In this document: piece by piece, positions 12,679-20,592 of the stretch
Layout: every line of letters starts with the position of its first letter
Position numbering within the stretch: position 1 is the first letter of the stretch
Source of the DNA: a virus
Virus record (IMG/VR): IMGVR_UViG_3300007345_000325
Span: 1 to 21,910 of that record
DNA length: 21,910 nucleotides
Direction: 5' to 3' (one strand)
Position numbers and translations under genes: made by a program
Notes under the pieces: model-generated
What the model saw: only the letters and a program-made list of their open reading frames with translations
What the model was told of the DNA's origin: nothing
The model's database searches: none

Positions 12679-12698
12679 AATTTAAATTTAAAAATTAG

Positions 12699-12772
12699 TA
12701 CACCCATTAGGAGTCGAACCTAAGACCTACTGCTTAGAAGGCAGTTGCTCTATCCATCTGAGCTATGGGTGC
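12699..12772 (-). tRNA. tRNA-Arg(UCU)
   Basis: A complete cloverleaf on the minus strand. The acceptor stem GCACCCA pairs with TGGGTGT (first pair G-U) with discriminator A; D stem GCTC/GAGC; anticodon stem ACTGC/GCAGT around the loop CTTCTAA, giving anticodon TCT; a 5-nt variable region; and T stem TTAGG/CCTAA around loop TTCGACT. CCA is not encoded. It reads AGA, a common arginine codon in these AT-rich genes, so it could support phage codon use. It is followed by a T-rich stretch (ACTAATTTTT). Located between the radical SAM gene and the Myb/SANT-like gene. Confidence 0.96.
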
Positions 12773-12777
12773 ATCAG

Positions 12778-13620
12778 TTAAAAAATATACCTTATTGTGT
12801 CTAAATCAAAGTACTGTGAGTATAGTTCTTTAAACTCCTCAAGTAACCTTGTTTTATGTTTCAAAGGATACCTCATAACGCCTGAACTATTTTTTACTTC
12901 ATAGCTGAGGCTCATTAATTCTTTGGCCTGGTCAGAAGACCTTGCCATTTGATTAGCATGATTAGTTAATGCAATTACCTCACATTTATTTACTCCTGCT
13001 ATATCTTTTACCATCTTAAATAACTCACTGTAGTCTTGTTTCCATTTCTTATAGAAAACAAGAGGACTGTAGTTAACGTGCACTTCCCACCCAAGGTCCT
13101 TAAGTCTATTGATCTCAGGGATCCTATCTGCAACCTTCTGCATCTTAGGCTCTAATACATCTGCAAACCTCTGAGGCATAAGACTAACTCTTACCCTAGG
13201 TTTTTTGTTAAAATGATTTACATCAAGCTTTAGCAACTTTGGATACTTAGTGGCCATTGTACTATTAAGCTGTGGATGATCATCATATCTTTTAAGATAA
13301 TCTATCAGTGGTTCTGGTAAATGTTTCTGCATCAATACTAAATCAGTATTACAAGCTACATCTACCATAGTATATTTAGGATCCTGCTGATCAGGGACCT
13401 TGGTAAAACCTTCTTCCCACTTAACAACAGATTCAAATATGTCATCTACATTAGTATTTACAAATACTCTATGACCATTGTACCGTGACATATAACAATA
13501 AGTGTCTACACAGCCACCAAAACATCCATAGATTAGATTTGGTGCTATACAGTTTGCACTATTGTTATTGTCTTTAGTAACCAAGGTCTTAGTCTGCTGA
13601 ATCTTAATTGCCTTGCTCAT
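12778..13620 (-). CDS. Radical SAM protein of the spore photoproduct lyase type
   Basis: This 280-residue protein has the features of spore photoproduct lyase-like radical SAM enzymes: a cysteine cluster in YGCFGGCVDTYCYMSRYNGH (31-50), followed by VFVNTNVDDIF, with later segments (VRVSLMPQRF and EVHVNYSPLVFY) that fit the barrel strands. The lyase reverses thymine-thymine spore photoproduct in DNA using a [4Fe-4S] cluster and S-adenosylmethionine. The cysteines are at 33, 37 and 42, so the spacing is CX3CX4C rather than the usual CX3CX2C; I checked this against the DNA and it is no reading error. C24 lies nearby. It is shorter than bacterial lyases (about 340 residues). A DNA photodamage repair role is likely but not certain. 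Confidence 0.82.
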   Translation of the reverse strand: MSKAIKIQQTKTLVTKDNNNSANCIAPNLIYGCFGGCVDTYCYMSRYNGHRVFVNTNVDDIFESVVKWEEGFTKVPDQQDPKYTMVDVACNTDLVLMQKHLPEPLIDYLKRYDDHPQLNSTMATKYPKLLKLDVNHFNKKPRVRVSLMPQRFADVLEPKMQKVADRIPEINRLKDLGWEVHVNYSPLVFYKKWKQDYSELFKMVKDIAGVNKCEVIALTNHANQMARSSDQAKELMSLSYEVKNSSGVMRYPLKHKTRLLEEFKELYSQYFDLDTIRYIF

Positions 13621-16826: not shown

Positions 16827-17023
16827 TTTGGAACACCTTTATTGACATAGTGTCTAATTAAATCAAGCTTTTCATAAGTAGACCTGGGCCTTCTAAACCC
16901 AGGTATATCTTCTACCCACCAATAATTTTCATTTCTCACAGTTCTCCAATCTTCTAAGTCAAAATTCTTAGTAAGATCTACAAACTCTTGATCAATTTCT
17001 GATAATGGTGGTCTTTTATACAC
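16823..17023 (-). CDS. Small unknown tryptophan-rich protein
   Basis: A 66-residue protein with a charged N-terminal half and a middle rich in tryptophan and aromatic residues (NENYWWVEDIPGFRRPRS, 31-48). Not recognised. It overlaps the HNH gene by 4 nt and the upstream gene by 8 nt. Confidence 0.72.
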   Translation of the reverse strand: MYKRPPLSEIDQEFVDLTKNFDLEDWRTVRNENYWWVEDIPGFRRPRSTYEKLDLIRHYVNKGVPK

Positions 17024-17510
17024 TTTTAAGTCTTGGTAAGCTATTAGGATCTCTTTTTAAACTTAAAAAGTTTGAACTTAAGATTCCTTCTTCAATAAAT
17101 ATACGAATTATTTCATTTTTATCAATATTTAAATCTTTAAAATTTAAAGTGTTTCTAACTTTATCATCAGTATCAGTATTACCAAGCATAAACTTGGTAA
17201 AACTTGTATCAGGAAACCATTTAGCAAACAATCCATTAGTAATAGTAATTACTTTTTTTTGTTTAGCTTCATTAAGCACACGCTGTGCTCTTCTATTAAC
17301 CTTTTGGATTCTGATTTTCTTTTGCTTACTCATCTTTTCTACTTCTTCAGCAGGTAAAGACTTAAGACCATATAATGCTCTCTTATACAGAAAGTTCTGA
17401 TATTGAGAATATTGGTCTGTTTCATATTTAGTATAAGTATTTTTCTTATACAACTGGTACTCTTCTAATTTTCCAGAGTACTCAAATTTTTGTTTTTTAG
17501 TCGAACTCAT
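17016..17510 (-). CDS. Unknown basic protein
   Basis: From the ATG at 17510 the protein has 164 residues and starts MSSTKKQKFEYSGKLEEYQL. An upstream in-frame ATG at 17537 would add 9 residues but lies only 7 nt from the base of a terminator hairpin, which would sit in the ribosome footprint; the ATG at 17510 has an A-rich leader instead. The protein is strongly basic (KKNTYTKYETDQYSQYQ; KQKKIRIQKVNRRAQRV), helical, with a tyrosine-rich first third. Not recognised; possibly a nucleic-acid-binding protein. It is the first gene after the terminator at 17541-17569. Confidence 0.75.
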   Translation of the reverse strand: MSSTKKQKFEYSGKLEEYQLYKKNTYTKYETDQYSQYQNFLYKRALYGLKSLPAEEVEKMSKQKKIRIQKVNRRAQRVLNEAKQKKVITITNGLFAKWFPDTSFTKFMLGNTDTDDKVRNTLNFKDLNIDKNEIIRIFIEEGILSSNFLSLKRDPNSLPRLKSV

Positions 17511-17540
17511 ATACAACTGTTTTTTTGGTAAATTCATAAA

Positions 17541-17569
17541 TAAAAAGGGGAATATTGCTACTCCCCTTT
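17541..17569 (-). terminator. Intrinsic terminator after the 158-residue protein gene
   Basis: On the minus strand AAAGGGGA pairs with TCCCCTTT (plus 17562-17569 and 17544-17551) over a 10-nt loop and runs into TTTTTATTT. The gene upstream ends at 17586. Strong stem plus U tract on the transcribed strand. Confidence 0.88.
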
Positions 17570-17585
17570 ACTATTGTTTATCTTA

Positions 17586-18062
17586 TTATCCTCCTATAGA
17601 GAAATCTTCATTAGCTTTCATTGCACCTGATGTCTTTTGACCTTCATATGCTGCACGTAATTCAGCAATATTATCATGCTGTACATAAGATTCTTCTTTA
17701 GTTCCTGTTGGATCATAAGTAGTCTTACGATAAATTGCAGAACCTTCTTTAGAACAAACAATTCCTGTTTCTCCTGCTACTTTTAAATCTCTATCTGGAT
17801 TTTTAGTATTAAATGGCTCTAATGATTCTGTAATACGAATTCTACCATCAAGTTCTTGACCTGCAAAAAATCCTAATGCTTTAAGATCTTCTGTTTCACC
17901 TTGTAATAAAGTTGAAATTGCTTTATTCTTTAAGAAACCATTATCATCAATAACTGATCTTACTTGTTCTAATCTAATAAAACCGTACTCTGGATTGTTC
18001 TCTGATACATTAACAATCGCTCCTGTTGTAGCATTAGCTACTACTTTAACTTTTTGATTCAT
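17586..18062 (-). CDS. Conserved-looking unknown phage protein, ends in GG
   Basis: A 158-residue protein starting MNQKVKVVANATTGAIVNV, then NPEYGFIRLEQVRSV, GFFAGQELDGRI and YRKTTYDPTG. It seems beta-rich with an acidic/disordered C-terminal tail ending FSIGG. I have an impression of similar hypothetical proteins in marine Bacteroidota phages, but no function. It is flanked by a structured leader with a possible pseudoknot (18104-18152) and a strong terminator, so it appears to be an individually controlled, perhaps abundant, product. DNA-binding (SSB-like or DNA-packaging) is conceivable but not supported by a motif. Confidence 0.8.
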   Translation of the reverse strand: MNQKVKVVANATTGAIVNVSENNPEYGFIRLEQVRSVIDDNGFLKNKAISTLLQGETEDLKALGFFAGQELDGRIRITESLEPFNTKNPDRDLKVAGETGIVCSKEGSAIYRKTTYDPTGTKEESYVQHDNIAELRAAYEGQKTSGAMKANEDFSIGG

Positions 18063-18103
18063 AGTTAAATTTTTAATAAATAAATAAATAATTAAATAAT
18101 TGA

Positions 18104-18152
18104 TGGCAACTAGATACTATACTTGCACATTGCCAAATGCAAGTAAGTTGGC
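18104..18152 (-). promoter_or_regulatory. Structured leader RNA: hairpin with pseudoknot-capable loop
   Basis: On the minus strand ACTTGCA pairs with TGCAAGT (plus 18121-18127 and 18138-18144) over a 10-nt loop containing TTTGGCAATG. The loop sequence TGGCAA can pair with TTGCCA 11 nt downstream of the stem (plus 18104-18109, 6 bp), the layout of an H-type pseudoknot; the loop sequence TTGGC can instead pair with GCCAA upstream (18148-18152). This alternative pairing is typical of regulatory leaders. The start codon of the following gene is about 40 nt downstream of the fold. A candidate promoter TTGCAT-N17-TAGTAT overlaps the same stretch. No known riboswitch class was recognised. Confidence 0.45.
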
Positions 18153-18174
18153 TTAAATAAATTAAGCTATTACA

Positions 18175-18435
18175 TTAAGATGATATATTCTTTATATCAA
18201 AATCTGTAGGAAATTGTTCTCCGTCATCATCAGGAAATCCTGTAAAATCTCTAAGATCTTCTTCAGGTTCTTTTGATGCTTTACTTTTTGTGTCTACTGC
18301 TGATCCACTAAACGGATTAATAATAGTATCACCATAGTCTGATGCTATAAAGTATTGAATGTCTTCATCAGTCATAGATAAGTATTCATCTATAGAGATG
18401 TATATTACTTTTCCATTAGGTAACTGATAATTCAT
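18175..18435 (-). CDS. Small acidic unknown protein
   Basis: An 86-residue protein starting MNYQLPNGKVIYISIDEYLS, then MTDEDIQYFIASDYGDTI; the second half is acidic and probably disordered (EPEEDLRDF, FPDDDGEQF). I recall similar N-termini (N-Y-Q-L-P-N-G-K) in small hypothetical proteins of Bacteroidota phages; no function is known. It is preceded by a long structured gene-free region and followed by the leader element at 18104-18152. Confidence 0.78.
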   Translation of the reverse strand: MNYQLPNGKVIYISIDEYLSMTDEDIQYFIASDYGDTIINPFSGSAVDTKSKASKEPEEDLRDFTGFPDDDGEQFPTDFDIKNISS

Positions 18436-18503
18436 ATACTAATTACGGAATAAATCTTTAAAGGTTAACGTGTAAACAATAAATATTTACCATTATATAG
18501 CTA

Positions 18504-18537
18504 ACAAGGGAAAAATATTTTCTGATTTCTCCCTTGT
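18504..18537 (-). other. Stem-loop in the gene-free region
   Basis: ACAAGGGA (18504-18511) and TCCCTTGT (18530-18537) form an 8-bp stem that extends to about 12 bp (A-rich against T-rich sides with one G-U on the minus strand). There is no U tract right after the stem on either strand, so it is not a standard terminator. Confidence 0.6.
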
Positions 18538-18579
18538 CATCTGCTACAAGCATATATTCGACTAAAATATAATGAGTAA

Positions 18580-18648
18580 AACCTGCTCTGACCCTCATAG
18601 TCACCGCAGACTATTGTTTAATTAAAACTCAAGGGTCAGTTACAGGTT
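18580..18648 (-). ncRNA. Candidate three-way-junction structured RNA
   Basis: Nested complementary pairs: outer stem AACCTG/CAGGTT (18580-18585 with 18643-18648), then CTGACCCT/AGGGTCAG (18588-18595 with 18632-18639), separated by a small internal loop. Inside lie two hairpins: ATAGTC-accgca-GACTAT (18597-18614) and GTTT-aatta-AAAC (18616-18628). Together they form a compact three-way junction of 69 nt. The pairing works on both strands; the minus strand matches local transcription. It does not match a hammerhead core or a tRNA by eye, and I could not assign a known family. It may be a small RNA, a leader element, or a DNA structure at an origin. Confidence 0.5.
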
Positions 18649-18655
18649 AAATGAA

Positions 18656-18701
18656 AGACACCAAGGAAGCCCACTAATGAGCCCCACAATTAATGGTGTC
18701 T
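18656..18701 (-). terminator. Possible terminator hairpin after the gene at 18709-19143
   Basis: AGACACCA (18656-18663) pairs with TGGTGTCT (18694-18701) around a 30-nt loop. On the minus strand the stem is followed by TTCATTT, a weak U-rich tail. It begins 8 nt after the stop codon of the preceding gene. The long loop makes terminator function uncertain. Confidence 0.45.
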
Positions 18702-18708
18702 AATGTGT

Positions 18709-19143
18709 TTAGATTATTACATCTTCAAATCCCATACTACAAGATGCATATAGATCATCTCCATATTTAAACTCTATAGTATATGGAAAATATTCTGTAT
18801 AACCTCTAAATGATTTTACATAACAGACAACTTCATTATCTACATTAATCAGATTATTTTCATGAAGTTGTTCAAGTATCTCATCTGCATTTGACAGTCC
18901 TACTTTAACTCTATCCCATTTACATCTAATTACATCTCCTTCGTGACACACTATTGGCAAACCTTTACCGAGCATAATTTGCACAAACAATGTAGACGCT
19001 TCAGTACTTTTTAATAAAAGTTCTGTAAATAGATCTGCAATTTGATTTGCTTTTTGTGTACTTTGTGTTTCTTTACATATGGTCTCAACCATTGATGTTA
19101 TATCTCTTTCTGTAAGGTTTATACCTACTTTTTTTATCTGCAT
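18709..19143 (-). CDS. Unknown protein
   Basis: From the ATG at 19143 the protein has 144 residues, starting MQIKKVGINLTERDITSMVE. An in-frame ATG at 19203 is possible but the extra 20 codons coincide with a 17-bp hairpin and would read through it, and the AAAAACAAAACT leader in front of 19143 matches the start-signal pattern seen elsewhere here. The body has a helical first half and a beta-rich second half (VVCYVKSFRGYTEYFPYTIE, then YGDDLYASCSM). Not recognised. No transmembrane segment. Confidence 0.75.
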   Translation of the reverse strand: MQIKKVGINLTERDITSMVETICKETQSTQKANQIADLFTELLLKSTEASTLFVQIMLGKGLPIVCHEGDVIRCKWDRVKVGLSNADEILEQLHENNLINVDNEVVCYVKSFRGYTEYFPYTIEFKYGDDLYASCSMGFEDVII

Positions 19144-19156
19144 AGTTTTGTTTTTA

Positions 19157-19197
19157 AAGCATAAGACTGAAGACATTACATCTTCAGCCTTGTGCTT
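19157..19197 (-). terminator. Strong hairpin downstream of the EDLPF-tail protein gene
   Basis: A stem of about 17 bp: TCTTCAGTCTT-A-TGCTT on one side and AAGCA-C-AAGGCTGAAGA on the other (minus strand), with one mismatch and one G-U pair, around a 7-nt loop TGTAATG. It lies between the stop at 19215 and the start at 19143. The tail is only TTTAAAAA, so it is a weak terminator, a processing site or a translation block for the alternative start at 19203. Confidence 0.6.
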
Positions 19198-19214
19198 ATC
19201 CACTTAAAAAAATC

Positions 19215-19826
19215 TTAGAATGGTAAATCTTCCAAATCAGGTTCTCTACCTTGAGTTATATCTACCACATTCCTATACTCATATTGATTATTAAGATCTG
19301 TATTTGGATCTAAATGCGGAAACTCTTTAACTACTGCATCAATACAAGTAGGTAATATATCAGGTCTTAACATCTTTCTTGGACTATCTGCAACAGAATC
19401 ATAATGCTGAACAACAGCACTTAATCCTTCTTGCTTTAGATAGCTACTAAGATTACTTGCAACCTTAGCTACAAATTTACCTAAGTTAATATTTCTGAAG
19501 TCATCACCAATGTGTATACCTGGTACAACCTTCCTCATAGTAACTCTTTTACCACCACTAGTAAGATCTATATCCCATTTTGCACCATCAAATTCTTGTA
19601 TGTAATCAATAAATTGCTTACCCAATAGATTCTTCATCCACTTCAATGGTTTATTTTGATGTTGAAAAGGATAATAATGAAATCCTACTATTACTTCAGT
19701 CTCTTGCTTGTCAAGGTCTGCTTCATGCATAACCCATTTGTCATAGTAACTACAACTAAATCTAAGTAAGTTACCTTCTTTTTGAGCTACTAATGAAGCT
19801 CCTCTATTTTTCTTTTTATATGCCAT
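19215..19826 (-). CDS. Unknown protein with SSB-like EDLPF C-terminal tip
   Basis: A 203-residue soluble protein with basic N-terminus (MAYKKKNRG), beta-prone and aromatic body (VIVGFHYYPFQHQNKPLKWM) and C-terminal sequence REPDLEDLPF. The last residues match the acidic-hydrophobic tip (D-D-x-P-F) of bacterial single-stranded DNA-binding proteins, which binds many repair and replication enzymes. This suggests either a second SSB-like protein or a mimic that docks on SSB partners; no OB-fold motif can be read by eye. The SSB-like gene at 5305-5991 lacks such a tip. The gene is followed by a strong hairpin. Confidence 0.75.
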   Translation of the reverse strand: MAYKKKNRGASLVAQKEGNLLRFSCSYYDKWVMHEADLDKQETEVIVGFHYYPFQHQNKPLKWMKNLLGKQFIDYIQEFDGAKWDIDLTSGGKRVTMRKVVPGIHIGDDFRNINLGKFVAKVASNLSSYLKQEGLSAVVQHYDSVADSPRKMLRPDILPTCIDAVVKEFPHLDPNTDLNNQYEYRNVVDITQGREPDLEDLPF

Positions 19827-19842
19827 TTCTAATCATAAATTA

Positions 19843-19865
19843 TGGAGGTGCACTACACACCTCCA
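19843..19865 (-). terminator. Perfect 8-bp hairpin over the stop codon of the coiled-coil gene
   Basis: TGGAGGTG (19843-19850) pairs with CACCTCCA (19858-19865), loop of 7 nt. The TAG stop codon of the gene at 19853-20086 lies in this hairpin. The minus-strand tail TAATTTAT is only weakly U-rich. It may be an inefficient terminator or an RNA-stabilising end. Confidence 0.5.
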
Positions 19866-20086
19866 AGTAAATAACTTGTAGCAATTGCTATTGTAACAAA
19901 TACTACTAATATAAGTACAGAGCTTTGAATAGTATATTCATATTTCAATGAACGATACTTTTCTCTAGCACTTTCCAACTCTTCTTTTCTTACAGCATAA
20001 TCAGCCCAATAAGCAGAGTAATCTACTTCTTTTTGTAATCTTGCTATGTCAGCTTCAGCTTGCTTCATCTCCTGATATGTCCCCAT
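19853..20086 (-). CDS. Coiled-coil protein with C-terminal membrane anchor
   Basis: A 77-residue protein. Residues about 4-50 (EMKQAEADIARLQKEVDY, then YAVRKEELESAREKYRSLKY) form a charged helix with coiled-coil spacing, and 54-77 (SSVLILVVFVTIAIATSYLL) is a transmembrane segment at the C-terminus. It is therefore likely tail-anchored, with the coiled coil in the cytoplasm. The start overlaps the lipoprotein gene by 32 nt; an ATG at 20068 would reduce this to 14 nt. Function unknown. The topology is the reverse of an i-spanin. Confidence 0.75.
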   Translation of the reverse strand: MGTYQEMKQAEADIARLQKEVDYSAYWADYAVRKEELESAREKYRSLKYEYTIQSSVLILVVFVTIAIATSYLLGGV

Positions 20087-20225
20087 ATTCTATATCATTT
20101 TGACCATAAGCATCACAGCTTACGTGTCCAGTTCCACAACTAGACATAATTAATACTAATGCAATAACAGCTATAACTGGTATAGCAATCTTCATAAAAT
20201 CTGATAACGTAATTGTTTTTCTCAT
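20055..20225 (-). CDS. Small lipoprotein
   Basis: From the ATG at 20225 the protein has 56 residues: basic start (MRKTIT), hydrophobic core (IAIPVIAVIALVLIM) and a lipobox MSSC, giving a mature lipoprotein of about 27 residues beginning CGTGHVSCDAYG. An ATG at 20255 adds 10 residues and overlaps the upstream stop by 11 nt; the A-rich leader AAAAAAAGAAAA favours 20225. The S-C-D-A-Y-G segment is one I associate with small Bacteroidota lipoproteins, consistent with such a host. It would be exported and lipid-anchored in the envelope; function unknown, possibly related to exclusion or lysis. Confidence 0.78.
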   Translation of the reverse strand: MRKTITLSDFMKIAIPVIAVIALVLIMSSCGTGHVSCDAYGQNDIEYGDISGDEAS

Positions 20226-20244
20226 TTTTCTTTTTTTAGAGAGT

Positions 20245-20445
20245 TTATAAATCATTTGTGTTCAGCATACCTAATTCTCCATACATCATTACACTATGGA
20301 GTTTAAGCAATTTTTCTTTTATAATTGCAAGATTACTTTCTGTTAACTTGCATTTATATTTATTTCTAATTTCTCTTTCAGTAATAGACTCGCTATGTAC
20401 TGCAATGTGCAACTGTTGCACTTCTTCAATCATAAAAGCATTCAT
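20245..20445 (-). CDS. Unknown small protein, HTH-like
   Basis: A 66-residue protein: MNAFMIEEVQQLHIAV, then ITEREIRNKYKCKLTESNLAIIKEKLLKLHS. The spacing of two helices around S-I-T-E-R-E-I and the basic stretch could be a small helix-turn-helix but no family is clear. Start follows an AAAACAAAATT leader. It lies next to the small lipoprotein gene (11 nt overlap with its longer form). Confidence 0.68.
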   Translation of the reverse strand: MNAFMIEEVQQLHIAVHSESITEREIRNKYKCKLTESNLAIIKEKLLKLHSVMMYGELGMLNTNDL

Positions 20446-20454
20446 AATTTTGTT

Positions 20455-20592
20455 TTAAGTGATAATTTGTAATTTAATAACTTTGATTTCAGTACCTTCA
20501 TCTGCTCTTTTATGAGCAAGATCTATATTAGAGGTAAATAATTCTTTTCCATCTTTAATGTAGATGTAACATTCATCTGTTGCTTGTAGCAT
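20455..20592 (-). CDS. 45-residue unknown protein
   Basis: A frame from ATG 20592 to TAA 20455 gives a 45-residue protein starting MLQATDECYIYIKDGKELFT, then ADEGTEIKVIKLQIIT: short beta strands. It fills a 153-nt gap, has an RNY codon pattern, and starts 6 nt after the upstream stop. Not recognised. Confidence 0.65.
   Translation of the reverse strand: MLQATDECYIYIKDGKELFTSNIDLAHKRADEGTEIKVIKLQIIT

Follow-up and report, generated by a model that had tools for sequence, protein, structure and literature searches.

What is the compact, branched structure that lies in a gene-free stretch of this viral DNA, just past the stop codon of one small gene and before the signals that precede another? 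In the window, by which we mean the whole stretch of 21,910 nt that was analysed, it takes the form of a three-way junction on the strand that bears most of the long ORFs. Tentatively, we take the junction for an accessory structure in the 3'-UTR of the mRNA whose last gene is the 164-aa one; an mRNA-tail structure of this accessory kind is more probable than a new RNA of wide conservation.

We read the window as part of a crAss-like phage, since its replicative helicase has matches in 35 phage records (27-31% identity in the 20 listed), many of them carrying the name 'uncultured phage cr...', which we take to denote crAss-like phages. The two genes on either side of the locus are themselves uninformative: the 164-aa ORF has no PHROG match and, in the 154-aa part scanned, no Pfam match, and the 86-aa ORF matches neither PHROG nor Pfam. 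The 158-aa gene two ORFs downstream has relatives at 46-94% identity on IMG/VR contigs of 32-114 kb; relatives of a 203-aa neighbour protein were not found in viral contigs or phages. Elsewhere in the window a protein with a spore photoproduct lyase match (Pfam SPL, E 5e-18) is encoded at 12781-13620 on the minus strand, adjoining a tRNA-Arg gene, and at 535-2950, also on the minus strand, a 391-aa ATPase (PHROG 1297) is followed by a 408-aa ORF that by eye resembles a VWA-type protein.

Table 1. Features of the locus, in coordinates of the window
Feature	Coordinates	Strand	Basis or remark
164-aa ORF upstream of the junction, start position provisional	18709..19203	minus	in tract common to L005
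Accessory stretch, from stop of the 164-aa ORF to the conserved block	18571..18708	minus	138 nt in the window
Hairpin H1, 5' neighbour of the junction	18656..18701	minus	fold
Three-way junction	18580..18648	minus	26 bp fold; homologue in L005
Conserved junction block ATATTTTAGTCGAATATA	18553..18570	minus	common to relatives
Covarying hairpin (likely), candidate terminator	18504..18537	minus	likeness to more distant relatives
Promoter-like motif TTAGCTATATAATG	18491..18504	minus	sequence
86-aa ORF downstream, first gene past the promoter-like motif	18175..18435	minus	ORF list

The setting is as the first-pass annotation had described it, with no ORF of at least 50 aa in 18436-18708 and with hairpins on either side of the junction; the full fold of a third flanking hairpin is seen in 18436-18708, a segment drawn at 18508-18546 clipping its end. 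The fold is real as well. Helices of 6, 8, 6 and 4 bp, which had been noted as closing 69 nt, are recovered when the plus strand is folded as RNA (-24.2 kcal/mol, z -5.07), and the minus strand folds better still (-29.7 kcal/mol, z -5.62); on neither strand is any of 200 shuffles as stable. Since the junction might owe its prominence to having been selected from some 22 kb, we also scanned the 69-mers of the whole window on both strands at a step of 2, and the junction ranks first among them. When the entire window was shuffled 24 times with its dinucleotides kept, the minima ranged from -20.9 to -27.5, none of the 24 reaching the -29.7 of the junction, in a comparison slightly biased towards the real window by the step of 4 used for the shuffled ones. 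Folded whole, the stretch 18436-18708 scores z -7.30 as minus-strand RNA and z -4.07 as plus-strand RNA.

The same annotation had been able to match the junction to no RNA family, and this holds for Rfam 15, which gives no match at gathering score; a search at lax limits returned five matches to the junction region (E 0.97-8.4), all far under their gathering scores. The sole Rfam match at cut-off in the window is a tRNA (12699-12772), and ARAGORN reports only tRNA-Arg (12698-12772), so that the junction is neither tRNA nor tmRNA. It shares with structured RNAs of Rfam the form of a compact three-way junction, here of 69 nt, and compact three-way junctions occur in some riboswitch and ribozyme families. 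Like intrinsic (Rho-independent) terminators it has a stem with a few U residues after it, but unlike them it is branched and falls outside the simple stem-and-loop form; a scan of 17500-20500 for such terminators (GC-rich simple stem, loop of 3-8, then a T-rich run) flagged four sites, neither the junction nor the covarying hairpin among them. No homologue of the junction was found in genomes by exact pattern, a kind of scan that would miss a diverged homologue, or in phages by BLAST, and a 26-nt plasmid match (E 0.8) was put down to chance. A scan of genome contigs with the 86-aa protein alignment likewise gave no match. Among the best literature matches, titles and the openings of abstracts name neither the junction nor the TTAGCTATATAATG motif, which does not imply their absence from print.

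The distribution of the junction was followed through its neighbours. Searched with the 86-aa protein alignment, IMG/VR yielded 105 relatives, of which 80 were kept; the alignment of the 164-aa upstream protein yielded 9. In IMG/VR the 18-mer of the conserved block matched 16 contigs, 14 of which were taken as real; L127 and L130 match the 18-mer but lack the junction, and neither aligns with the window in BLAST at 1e-5. These 14 amount to fewer independent cases, as the same printed sequence recurs in L003/L004 (as L021/L022), L018/L019 and L023/L025. The accessory stretch is absent from 10 of the 14: the upstream stop stands 7 nt from the block in eight contigs and within the block in two. 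One further contig, that of L005/L014, has a stretch of 156 nt holding the same three-way junction, and another, that of L002/L118, starts 8 nt ahead of the block. The L002 contig, the closest relative of the window (93.8% identity over 1074 nt), thus starts at the insertion site, perhaps a matter of strain variation. In L026 and L027 the upstream stop and the block are separated by 84 nt of unrelated, hairpin-rich sequence, the fold of which surpasses shuffles to a moderate degree (z -2.68 in L026 and -2.56 in L027, with 4/200 and 3/200 shuffles as good); it resembles a three-way junction, but L027 has an equally good alternative fold.

Direct searches for the junction agree with this narrow distribution. 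A covariance model (R1) built from the two copies, when run on 34 chosen records, recovers nothing beyond those copies; these records are part of the records behind the loci, the remainder being covered by BLAST of the loci alone; an exact-pattern scan of IMG/VR finds only the L005 contig. L007, L008 and L009 match a 17-mer of the junction, and none folds into it, so these matches were taken as chance. A short frame open across the block in the window and in L005 (57 aa in the latter) was rejected as a gene by eye on account of single-base differences in loop length between L026 and L027 and an in-frame stop in L016 and L028.

Past the conserved block the hairpin listed in Table 1 as a candidate terminator is likely, if not overwhelmingly so, to covary. 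In the 13 close sequences from which its pairs were counted, a 39-sequence alignment being left out, two-sided changes occur at 4 of 12 pairs (a number reached by 9/500 shuffles), 92.9% of cells are paired, and the covariation score is reached by 0/500 shuffles. Further pair types are no more frequent than in shuffles (424/500), and with the partner shifted by one column 4 pairs are kept and the score is 0.278 against 0.293. We take this hairpin, which runs into TTAGCTATATAATG, for a candidate terminator of the upstream operon by comparison with more distant relatives, whose hairpin at the corresponding position is rich in GC and has T residues after it.

These observations suggest how the junction might work as an accessory structure of the 3'-UTR. 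The transcript of the 164-aa gene would run through it in an untranslated 3' tail, the junction would precede the putative terminator of the upstream operon and, beyond that, the putative promoter of the next, and it may assist in forming or protecting the upstream mRNA's 3' end, a part often played by stable hairpins close to the 3' ends of bacterial transcripts. Recombination breaks near the adjoining conserved block would explain why it moves along with the upstream gene. The junction indeed lies after the stop codon on the coding strand, and the proposal is supported by the strand of the gene, the greater stability on that strand and the place between the stop codon and the covarying hairpin, as well as by the promoter-like motif that comes after this hairpin and by the likeness of the window to L005 in the upstream but not the downstream gene. 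The unrelated hairpin insert in the same gap of L026 and L027 fits a role that needs structure and not sequence. Post-stop position, coding strand and high stability are what it shares with bacterial and phage 3'-UTR hairpins near mRNA 3' ends, from which it differs in being a branched three-way structure, in having been found in only two phages and in having a function that is only predicted. Against a 3'-UTR role stand the 10 contigs without an insert, by which the junction is dispensable, the moderate stability of the L026/L027 insert and a sequence identity of the junction no different from that of neutral sites. The failure of the terminator scan to flag either the junction or the covarying hairpin lowered our confidence and raised that in a functionless passenger. 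Should the junction be transcribed, it would illustrate from nature how an mRNA tail can vary among phages while the adjoining signals stay fixed.

The main rival, which we regard as somewhat unlikely, is precisely such a passenger: a neutral palindromic insert, either a product of chance or in decay, that was brought in with a recombined gene tract and does nothing. One argument for it is the comparison with L005: 70/74 junction positions are identical between L005 and the window, as are 40/44 fourfold sites in the 164-aa gene (p 0.47, no difference, the numbers being small). The near-identity of the junction need not mean selection, since the adjacent fourfold sites, in an apparently recombined tract, are equally similar. 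At fourfold sites the 86-aa gene is identical at only 10/20 (Fisher p 0.0006 against the 164-aa gene), the 158-aa gene at 33/48 and the 203-aa gene at 18/26. Identity per 60 nt is 80-97% over 18741-19220 and 45-76% over 19221-19820; bins of high identity are found in other places too (four between 19821 and 20180 at 85-98%; those of 17001-17540 at 78-97%), so that identity per bin cannot by itself prove a tract and fourfold sites are the better guide. For the 164-aa gene the nearest relative of the window is L005 among the six compared, L002 lacking the gene because its contig ends, and for the 86-aa gene (nine compared) the window is nearest to L002 and L005 to L018. The window and L005 thus appear to have a common tract on the upstream side only, and the different nearest relatives of the two genes place a recombination boundary probably in or near the intergenic stretch.

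A passenger also accords with the presence of the junction in just two of the 34 records searched with the covariance model, and with the fate of H1, which has been wholly replaced between the window and L005: the two versions cannot be aligned, though each phage has a hairpin between the gene and the junction. What speaks against it is the stability of the junction, beyond that of all 24 whole-window shuffles, and the pattern of change in its stems. The two homologues show two one-sided changes, no two-sided change and no broken pair; that both changes keep pairing is consistent with the fold but is no covariation, and two changes prove little.

A 3'-UTR role is also to be weighed against the first-pass proposal of a new small RNA, which we would picture as a discrete phage transcript, processed or made from its own promoter, that acts in trans on host or phage RNA. 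The compact, stable fold and the UGCGGU loop, identical in both copies, would suit such an RNA, which we nevertheless consider unlikely: ahead of the junction there is no convincing promoter (a Bacteroidota-type pattern has only two matches, each with 2 mismatches), the region has fewer sigma-70-like sites than its shuffles do (12 vs 17.4), and the junction was not found in the other 32 records searched. Rather unlikely, too, is an element acting at the level of DNA, a small palindromic cassette, mobile or prone to recombination, for which this site is the point of insertion. Such a cassette would fit the finding that phages differ in which of two hairpin inserts they hold here, and the tract boundary in or near the stretch; yet the junction is present in a single copy per record wherever it occurs, and the scans made gave no copy outside the L005 contig bar the one 26-nt chance match. 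A slim chance may be given to a variant in which the gap is an accessory slot of crAss-like phages, where different branched RNAs (the junction with H1, or the L026/L027 insert) would be swapped along with the upstream gene, each being a phage RNA directed against a host target.

The remaining early suggestions were a leader element, here taken to include a riboswitch acting on the 86-aa gene, and an origin structure. Both are very improbable in spite of the position of the junction upstream of the replication-side gene block: a leader is opposed by the terminator- and promoter-like signals between the junction and the 86-aa gene, and an origin by the 10 of 14 block contigs without the junction and by the 109-kb relative G004, where the sign of the GC skew switches from the 40-45 kb bin to the 45-50 kb bin and the genes change direction at about 42-43 kb, the element lying several kb away at 49.6 kb; nor is there an Rfam match.

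The conserved neighbouring site is perhaps more useful than the junction itself, and its motif TTAGCTATATAATG may merit more attention. Upstream of the 86-aa gene it occurs in strict form in 55/78 loci and in loose form in 14 more, 9 lacking it by these patterns (two of the 80 loci were too short and were left out, and there are near-duplicates among the loci). If one mismatch is allowed, 12 of the 13 records chosen contain it and 8 of the 13 contain it on both strands, and a backwards control gave none. Of the two copies in G004, the one at 49771-49784 (+) belongs to the same junction, and the one at 26189-26202 (-) has the portal gene on one side and on the other a 432-aa gene, itself followed by the major head protein. 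We regard TTAGCTATATAATG as a putative promoter, and together with the covarying hairpin it offers a testable promoter candidate for uncultured crAss-like phages. Several more distant relatives (L031 at 385, L032 at 533, L053 at 785 and others) have a second TTAGCTATATATT about 1.4-2.3 kb further upstream, after a TTTGTATTTG-rich tract. Just past TTAGCTATATAATG, at 18472-18490 on the minus strand, the window reads GTAAA..TTTAC where L005 has GCAA..TTGC and L023 TGAT..ATCA, by eye a possible covarying 5'-UTR hairpin, the predicted folds of which differ between loci.
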